This document shows, piece by piece, positions 30,781-33,665 of a DNA stretch of 37,783 bases (position 1 is its first letter; every line of letters starts with the position of its first letter). The position numbers and the translations under genes were made by a program. The notes under the pieces were generated by a model. That model saw nothing but the letters and a program-made list of their open reading frames with translations. It was not told where the DNA came from and did no database searches. This DNA comes from SAR86 cluster bacterium (lineage in GTDB: Bacteria; Pseudomonadota; Gammaproteobacteria; Magnimaribacterales; D2472): the NCBI GenBank assembly GCA_029254395.1, contig JAQWXQ010000037.1, forward strand, positions 1 to 37,783, given 5' to 3'.

Positions 30781-32922
30781 GTGGAAAATAATAAATTAGA
30801 ATCTACTAAAGTAGAATTTCAGTACGGAAATAAATTAGTAAAATTAGAAACAAACAAAGTCGCTAGACAAGCCACTGCAGCAGTGGTTGTAACCATTGAT
30901 GATTTGGTTGTATTAACAACTGTTGTGGCTAAAAAAGAAGCAGATCCAAAAAAAGATTTCTTCCCATTAGCAGTGTTTTATCAAGAAAAATTTTATGCAA
31001 CAGGTACCATACCTGGAGGTTTCTTTAAAAGAGAAGCAAGACCAACAGAGAGAGAAACATTAACTTCAAGACTTATAGACAGGCCTATAAGACCGTTATT
31101 CCCAGAAGGTTTTAAAAATGAAGTACAAATTTTTTGTACCGTATTGTCTTCAGGAAAAGATCAAAACCCAGATATAGCAGCCATGATAGGCGCGTCTGCA
31201 GCATTATGTGTTGCTGGAGTACCTTTCGATGGTCCTATGGGAGCAGCAAGAGTTGGGTTTGTTGATGGTAATTATGTTCTTAATCCTTCGTATGAAGAGT
31301 TAGAAGATTCATACCTAGACATGGTAGTGGCTGGAACAGAAGAAGCTGTTTTAATGGTCGAATCTGAAGCTAAAGAGCTTAATGAAGATTTAATGCTTGG
31401 CGCTGTTTTATTCGCCCATCAAGAAATGCAAGCTGTTGTAAAGGCTTGTTCTGAACTTAAAGAAAAAGCTGGTAAAGAAGATTGGGTTGTCACTGTTGAT
31501 GAGGAATCACCCGTATACGCTGCAGAGCTATCTGAGAAGTTTACTGATCAAATTACAGAAGCTTTCACAATTAAAGATAAGTCAGAAAGAACAGCAGCTA
31601 TTGGAGTTATAAAAGATGCAATTGTTGACTCTTATCCAGATGCTGATGAAATTCAACTTGGTAAAGTTCTTGGAGCATTTAAAAATCTTGAAAAAGACAT
31701 AGTAAGAAAAAATATTTTAAGTAAGCAGCCTAGAATTGATGGAAGAGATACGGATACTGTTAGACCTATATTTGTTGAGACAGATGTTCTTCCTAGTACT
31801 CATGGATCTTCATTGTTCACAAGAGGTGAGACCCAAGCAATTGTTGTTGCAACTTTAGGCTCATCAAGAGACGCTCAAAGAATTGAGTCTATTGAAGGCC
31901 AAAGCACTGACAATTTCATGCTTCATTACAATTTCCCAGCATATAGTGTTGGAGAAATCGGCATGCCAATGGGACCAAAAAGAAGAGAAATTGGACACGG
32001 CAATTTAGCGAAAAGAGCTATTAAAGCAGTGTTGCCTGATCTAGAAGATTTTGGTTATACAATGAGAGTGGTCTCTGAGATAACAGAATCAAATGGATCA
32101 AGCTCAATGGCATCAGTATGCGGTACTTCTTTATCACTAATGGATGCAGGGGTTCCAATTTCAAGCCCAGTTGCTGGTATAGCAATGGGGTTAATTAAAG
32201 AAGGCGATGATTTTGCTGTCCTAACTGATATCTTGGGTGATGAAGATCACTTAGGTGACATGGACTTTAAAGTAGCTGGAACTGAGAATGGTATTACAGC
32301 ATTACAAATGGATATTAAAATCCAAGGTATAAATGAAGCCATTATGGAAACAGCTCTAACTAAGGCTAAGGTTGCTATCACACATATTCTTGGAATTATG
32401 AATGAGGCGATATCGACTCCTAAAGAGCTTTCTGAGAACGCTCCCGCTATGAAAACATTCATGGTTGAAAAAGATAAGATTAAAGAAATTATTGGAAAGG
32501 GTGGAGCAGTTATCAAAGGCATGCAAGAAAAAACAGGTGCGACTGTTGATGTTAGTGATGATGGAACTGTTTCTGTTTTTGGTCAAAACCAAATATCAAT
32601 GCAAGAATGTCTAGAAATCATCGAGGGTATTTTAGAAGAGCCTGAGCTTAATAAAGTTTATAACGGTAAAGTTGTAAAAATTGTTGATTTTGGAGCTTTC
32701 GTAAATATTCTTCCAGGCAAAGATGGTTTATTGCACATCTCTGAAATTTCACATGAAAGAACTGAAAGCGTATCTGCGGTTTATTCAGAAGGCGATGAGA
32801 TAGAAGTTAAACTTATTGGCTTTGATAGAGGCAAGATGAAACTTTCAGTTAAAGCTCTTCAGGAGAAGAAAGTTGAAGAAGCTTCAGATGAAGCAGAAGA
32901 AGCATCAGATTCAGAAGAATAA
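30781..32922 (+). CDS. pnp: Polyribonucleotide nucleotidyltransferase (PNPase), GTG start
   Basis: [33 protein letters not shown] ([18 protein letters not shown]) and S1 domains. Confidence 0.99.
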
Positions 32923-32933
32923 TACTCTTATAA

Positions 32934-32969
32934 GATAAATTCTCAAAAGTCAAACTTTGAGAATTTATC
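32934..32969 (+). terminator. Long hairpin downstream of pnp
   Basis: GATAAATTCTCAAA...TTTGAGAATTTATC, perfect 14-bp inverted repeat with 8-nt spacer; weak T-tract. Confidence 0.6.
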
Positions 32970-33050
32970 ATTTCATATAATTTGCCCTATTTATACTTAT
33001 ATGGTCTTATACATGTGCAAAACATATAAAACCTATAGGGGGGAAATATT

Positions 33051-33269
33051 ATGAATGCATTAGATACGTTGAAAGGAATTATCGGCCAATTAACACATAT
33101 ACTTGTTGCTGCAATAGGTCTTGGTGTTGTAGCTGGTATAGTCTTTGGAGGCGACACATGGTTTGTTGGCGCAGTTCTAGATTCACTTCTAGACGTCGTT
33201 ACTAAACTAGGTGAAGCAGGCTTAGTAGGGCTTTTAGTAGCTGCTATGCTTATTGGCCTTCTTAAGTAA
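33051..33269 (+). CDS. Small hydrophobic protein, copy 1 (two predicted TM segments, FGxDTxFVG motif)
   Basis: 72 aa; SD run GGGGGG before ATG; gapless similarity to the next ORF. Confidence 0.85.
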   Translation: MNALDTLKGIIGQLTHILVAAIGLGVVAGIVFGGDTWFVGAVLDSLLDVVTKLGEAGLVGLLVAAMLIGLLK

Positions 33270-33283
33270 TATCTGAGAACTTT

Positions 33284-33313
33284 ATTAAGAAGGGCTTCAT
33301 AGCCCTTCTTAAT
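33284..33313 (+). promoter_or_regulatory. Perfect 13-bp hairpin between the two small-protein genes
   Basis: ATTAAGAAGGGCT-TCAT-AGCCCTTCTTAAT; no U-tract follows. Confidence 0.7.
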
Positions 33314-33328
33314 ATCTACTAATTAAAT

Positions 33329-33550
33329 ATGGAATATACAAAAAAAGTCATTGAATTCTTAAATAAACTTACTGATATTTTAGTTCCAGTGATATCGGTA
33401 GCAATTCTTCTTGGTGTAATATTTGGTCTAGATACACCATTTGTTGGACAGGTTTATGCAAATGTATCAGAGATATTAAATATGCTTGGAGAAGGAGCAT
33501 TACTGGCTCTGGTCTCTATTGTTATTATTTTGGCATACATAAAGAAATAA
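33329..33550 (+). CDS. Small hydrophobic protein, copy 2 (paralogue of 33051..33269)
   Basis: 73 aa; shares LTxILV, FGxDTxFVGxV and LGExxL with copy 1. Confidence 0.83.
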   Translation: MEYTKKVIEFLNKLTDILVPVISVAILLGVIFGLDTPFVGQVYANVSEILNMLGEGALLALVSIVIILAYIKK

Positions 33551-33588
33551 AAAACTTATATATTAATCTTTAAGCACATAATTTGAAT

Positions 33589-33665
33589 TGGTGGCTATGG
33601 GTGGAATTGAACCACCGACCCCAGCGTTATGAGTGCTGTGCTCTAACCATCTGAGCTACATAGCC
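33589..33665 (-). tRNA. Elongator tRNA-Met(CAT), encoded CCA
   Basis: Minus: GGCTATGTAGCTCAGATGGTTAGAGCACAGCACTCATAACGCTGGGGTCGGTGGTTCAATTCCACCCATAGCCACCA; close to E. coli tRNA-Met. Confidence 0.93.

Follow-up and report, generated by a model that had tools for sequence, protein, structure and literature searches.

A tandem pair of small membrane proteins with a maintained intergenic hairpin in SAR86 genomes

Two small genes lie in tandem on the forward strand of the window, the whole 37,783-nucleotide stretch of SAR86 DNA that was analysed. ORF1 (33051-33269) encodes a type 1 small membrane protein of 72 residues and ORF2 (33329-33550) a type 2 protein of 73 residues. Both assignments draw on relatives, structural models, selection, and a tree. 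The sequence-only reading had aligned the two without gaps and counted 22 identities in 72 positions; both ORFs were found where it had placed them and its count is exact. In 20,000 shuffles the mean was 6.8 identities and the maximum 18, and none reached 22. A BLASTP comparison of ORF1 with ORF2 gave 34% over 62 residues (E 4e-12, single comparison), and a profile-profile comparison gave a probability of 98.9 (E 2.9e-17). The proposal of a duplicated small membrane protein family is supported. LTxILV, FGxDTxFVGxV, and LGExxL are each present in the window's pair. However, FGxDTxFVG, which had been offered as a core motif, occurs in 1 of 53 ORF1 and 11 of 72 ORF2 sequences and is therefore not a conserved motif. 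The looser pattern FG...F[VFIL]G is kept in 62 of the 72 ORF2 sequences and in only 12 of the 53 from ORF1.

The family was identified in 39 of 41 genomes of the order, and in each of the 39 pairs examined the two genes shared a strand, with ORF1 first. In a larger draw it was found in 97 of 116 SAR86 genomes that were at least 80% complete, and in 37 of the 40 best. There were usually exactly two matches per genome. Relatives keep both ORFs, and no internal stop is present among the matches listed, so this check of the sequence-only reading did not refute it. Both ORFs are under purifying selection, with a median dN/dS between close relatives of 0.15 for ORF1 and 0.054 for ORF2, so ORF2 is the more constrained of the two. 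These ratios and the absence of internal stops rule out that the ORFs are spurious. In the tree, ORF1 and ORF2 form separate clades, and the ORF1 side of the branch has 100/100 support. This shows that a single duplication took place before the SAR86 order radiated and that the two genes were then inherited jointly.

In most SAR86 loci the order is pnp-ORF1-ORF2-tRNA-Met-ychF-pth-rplY-prs. In the window, the upstream neighbor pnp, encoding PNPase, is at 30781-32922 on the forward strand, in keeping with this recurrent order. Family f4 keeps the tRNA-Met and ychF side of the pair but not pnp. In family f3 (L047) the pair is at another site, beside tRNA-Ser and a serS-like gene. A link to the function of pnp was rejected, since both in f3 and outside SAR86 the pair is found at other sites. 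In genus g12 of f3, the pair is absent in four of four genomes (G026, G786, G787, and G788). This looks like a real loss, and a genus without the pair indicates that it is not indispensable. Genus g12 is also a natural comparison for what else changed. The pair is missing from G039 as well, and because the usual neighbor ychF is also missing from that assembly, this is probably an assembly gap and not a loss.

With iterated profiles, further relatives were recovered from other Gammaproteobacteria, some of them as tandem pairs in two additional families. Tandem pairs are present in G761, G257, and G141, and single genes in G265 and in G746, the latter beside ubiA. The sequences from G746 and G265, and G761 a and G761 b, score above their own shuffles against profiles built without them. 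The G265 relative (L061, 1168-1719) has a long tail, mostly of Lys-Thr repeats, that follows the membrane part and is predicted to face the cytoplasm. The pair in G257 and G141 is flanked by fau-like and yaaA-like genes, and its two copies are separated by a GC hairpin. This location, together with that in f3, indicates that the cassette is independent of pnp. In the tree, the first copy from G257 and G141 groups with SAR86 ORF1 and the second copy is placed on the side of ORF2; these deep placements have modest support. The type-1/hairpin/type-2 arrangement is shown in another gammaproteobacterial lineage at a different chromosomal place. The G761 pair has no hairpin between its copies and a terminator-like hairpin after copy 2, and the Shine-Dalgarno (SD) sequence of copy 2 is at least as strong as that of copy 1. 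A single clade of all first copies, ORF1 and those outside SAR86, was rejected with G761 included (p 0.018), so the two G761 genes may have arisen by a duplication of their own. A search of 399 sampled genomes of the phylum with a narrower profile yielded no further relatives. A single-sequence match in G214 (E 6e-4), which lies within a frame of 246 codons, and weak class-level matches in long frames were treated as chance.

ORF1 and ORF2 represent a protein family that is real and old, as the pair is found in nearly every SAR86 genome and has paired distant relatives in a few other gammaproteobacteria, and that has apparently gone undescribed. The sequence-only reading had recognised no characterised family, and in agreement with this neither protein had a match in Pfam, NCBIfam, PHROG, PDB sequences, or fold entries. 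The literature searched yielded nothing on the locus or on small membrane proteins of SAR86, with subscription papers and small-ORF catalogues outside the search. A match of the ORF2 profile to RecA fusion chains in the PDB was noise summed over repeats, with no single significant stretch.

Small hydrophobic proteins of such size often serve as accessory subunits. By this established habit, ORF1 and ORF2 could be separate small subunits like AcrZ, KdpF, and CydX, each on a different larger membrane complex, and they need not meet. The neighbors differ among lineages, and position therefore points to no fixed partner; in some outside lineages (G746 and G265) there is a single copy. However, the two genes stay in tandem throughout the order and are again found as type 1 followed by type 2 outside it, which suggests that ORF1 and ORF2 work together. 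In addition, the match to AcrZ (PF10766) is not above its cut-off (7.6 bits against 26.2, E 3.8). Separate accessory subunits are rather unlikely here.

Class II holins are of comparable size and hairpin topology. The two proteins would fit this pattern as a pore-forming or inhibitory pair, resembling a holin and antiholin or a hydrophobic bacteriocin and its partner, and they have sub-threshold scores to holins and circular bacteriocins (E 0.17-0.31). For the circular bacteriocin class IId family (PF09221), the score was 11.7 bits against a gathering cut-off of 23.6, and among 22 members one scored to this family. The near-universal vertical inheritance and the fixed housekeeping location make such a pair very unlikely. 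There was also no fold match, and no relatives were found in phages, plasmids, or viral contigs, so the setting of a holin, in a phage or prophage beside lysis genes, is not seen. The two could also be pilins of the VirB2/TrbC type that belong to a filament or a secretion system. The length is similar, a hydrophobic hairpin is shared, and one second-copy relative scores E 0.12 to T4SS_pilin (PF18895). Against this, the VirB2/TrbC pilin profile (PF04956) has no match at E 0.1 in the window's own genome, and no match to solved pilins was obtained. No signal peptide is evident, and no type IV secretion or conjugation locus surrounds the pair, whose neighbors are pnp, tRNA-Met, ychF, pth, rplY, and prs. 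A pilin pair appears to be extremely unlikely.

The proteins had been pictured as two-helix proteins, which is incomplete, as the predicted models give three helices in each. In both, the first helix is long, the middle one amphipathic, and the last one short. The helices span residues 3-31, 36-55, and 58-71 in the ORF1 model (mean pLDDT 72, moderate confidence) and 2-32, 39-53, and 55-71 in that of ORF2 (mean pLDDT 86). The middle segment has three to four acidic and few basic residues, with a net charge of about -3 in both proteins. Both C-tails are basic, and the N-tail is +2.4 in ORF2 and not positive in ORF1. By the positive-inside rule, basic tails are assigned to the cytoplasm. From these charges and the models, each protein is likely an N-in/C-in hairpin with its middle helix at the periplasmic face. 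This topology is less sure for ORF1 than for ORF2, since the ORF1 N-tail is not positive. Residues M1, L14, T15, G23, G25, V27, F32, G33, L53, G57, G60, and L61 are invariant in ORF1 relatives, and L18, L27, G29, G33, G40, Y43, N45, G54, I66, and I67 in ORF2 relatives. The way the glycines are spaced in ORF1 suggests that its helices pack closely.

A pnp-distal hairpin had been noted upstream of ORF1, and it was located at 32934-32969 on the forward strand as a 14-bp stem with GTCAAA (32949-32954) in the loop. In 68 of 79 loci, GTCAAA precedes ORF1 by about 100 nt. At some of these it forms the loop of a hairpin that follows pnp, and at others no matching stem accompanies it. Genome-wide comparisons were made in G003, a SAR86 relative of which 1.2 Mb was examined (loci L159-L218). 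AAAGTCAAATnTT occurs once in these 1.2 Mb. The probable ORF1 promoter (32982-33010, forward strand) was identified by eye as a conserved block in the upstream alignment. It consists of TTGCCC, 17 nt, and TCTTAT preceded by TG. A plain consensus scan did not call this block. The ORF1 ribosome-binding site, GGGGGG, is at 33038-33043 on the forward strand, as judged from conservation of the G run and from anti-SD pairing. A run of five to seven G is present just before the ORF1 start in 79 of 79 loci. ORF1 had been credited with a very strong SD and ORF2 with none. The predicted anti-SD pairings bear this out, at -11.0 kcal/mol for ORF1 and +1.9 for ORF2. In G003, the equivalent ORF1 site is among the strongest 0.2-0.6% of genes. 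The lack of an SD in ORF2 is ordinary, as the median gene in the lineage has almost no anti-SD pairing (G003). G003 makes little use of SD sequences and has no translational codon bias. Codon adaptation was dropped as a proxy for expression; ribosomal genes are the same as the rest in the SAR86 genome, so codon usage is uninformative on this point. That ORF1 carries sequence marks of probable high expression is supported.

Between the two ORFs there is a further hairpin (33283-33314, forward strand). Its perfect 14-bp stem, which the sequence-only reading did not mention, is terminator-like and has no clear U run here. Hairpins in 76 distinct SAR86 gaps have a median of -20.3 kcal/mol (z -4.8, 95% below -3). 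There are 61 different stems among these 76 gaps. Thus, the hairpin is kept in nearly all SAR86 loci while its sequence changes. As a control, a similar hairpin was found in 12 of 129 same-strand gaps of 30-110 nt in one SAR86 genome. With about one in ten comparable gaps carrying a hairpin, this one may be an ordinary terminator of ORF1, and ORF2 may be transcribed from an unseen promoter within ORF1. There would then be no control of ratio, and the two proteins could still be partners. Such independent transcription is improbable. The hairpin is only about 15-25 nt from the ORF2 start in many loci, which leaves no room for a promoter between them. No forward-strand promoter was called in this region of the window, by a scan that also misses the conserved ORF1 block. 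After ORF2, no clear terminator is seen in 33551-33665, and transcription continuing past ORF2 would be antisense to tRNA-Met (33589-33665, minus strand).

The preferred reading is an inner-membrane assembly in which ORF1 is abundant and ORF2 scarcer, in a ratio set by the ribosome site and the hairpin. From the signals described above, this is quite possible, if somewhat short of probable. The cassette would be self-contained and would encode two paralogous small inner-membrane proteins. In each, helix 1 would cross the membrane, the acidic amphipathic middle helix would lie at the periplasmic face, and the short last hydrophobic helix would return. The lysine-bearing tails of both proteins would stay cytoplasmic. 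ORF1 would be made in large amounts, owing to a promoter of its own and to its exceptional ribosome site. Most transcripts would end or be trimmed at the hairpin, and ORF2 would thus be made in smaller amounts, by read-through. The glycine-rich ORF1 may pack into homo-oligomers that ORF2 joins as a minor partner, so that the cassette could yield an abundant membrane assembly, structural or channel-like, whose subunits occur in a set ratio. The binding of ORF1 to ORF2 and the role of the assembly are the weakest part of this proposal. It is possible, on the doubtful side, that the two proteins form a hetero-oligomeric inner-membrane assembly that has not been described before, that was already present in the ancestor of several gammaproteobacterial lineages, and that belongs to the SAR86 core. 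Its ratio of major to minor subunit would be fixed by the exceptional ribosome site and by a hairpin that persists in every case although its sequence varies.

Among heterotrophic bacterial groups in surface seawater, SAR86 is one of the most abundant. A pair that is near-universal, strongly selected, and apparently abundant, yet unnamed, is a sizeable blank in the SAR86 cell envelope. ORF1 and ORF2 are small enough to be expressed and studied in laboratory strains, and gammaproteobacteria with larger genomes that carry relatives may provide a culturable host.

Several known systems resemble the pair in part. The circular bacteriocins of PF09221, holins, and AcrZ are likewise small, hydrophobic, and helical, but the scores to them are weak or below curated cut-offs and the genomic setting of ORF1 and ORF2 is unlike theirs. 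VirB2/TrbC pilins (PF04956) and T4SS_pilin (PF18895) share a similar length and two hydrophobic segments; the VirB2/TrbC profile has no match and there is no secretion locus. The puf light-harvesting operon is an example of a subunit ratio set by an intergenic hairpin. Operons of this type also place a highly translated small membrane subunit first, followed by a stable hairpin and a second product downstream, with ratio control here being proposed, whereas their proteins are unrelated to ORF1 and ORF2. The FESNov synapomorphies are lineage-defining novel families of uncultivated taxa, for which the order-level criterion is about 90% clade coverage and 100% specificity (PMC10849945). Like the FESNov families, the pair is near-ubiquitous in an uncultivated order, strongly selected, fixed in context, membrane-bound, and unannotated (PMC10849945). 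Against that criterion, coverage is 37 of the 40 best genomes and 97 of 116 overall. The pair differs from FESNov families (PMC10849945) in having distant homologues outside the order, which break strict specificity, so it is not strictly confined to SAR86. Small membrane proteins at the core of a lineage are a known kind, and the new part is the two-type cassette with its maintained hairpin.
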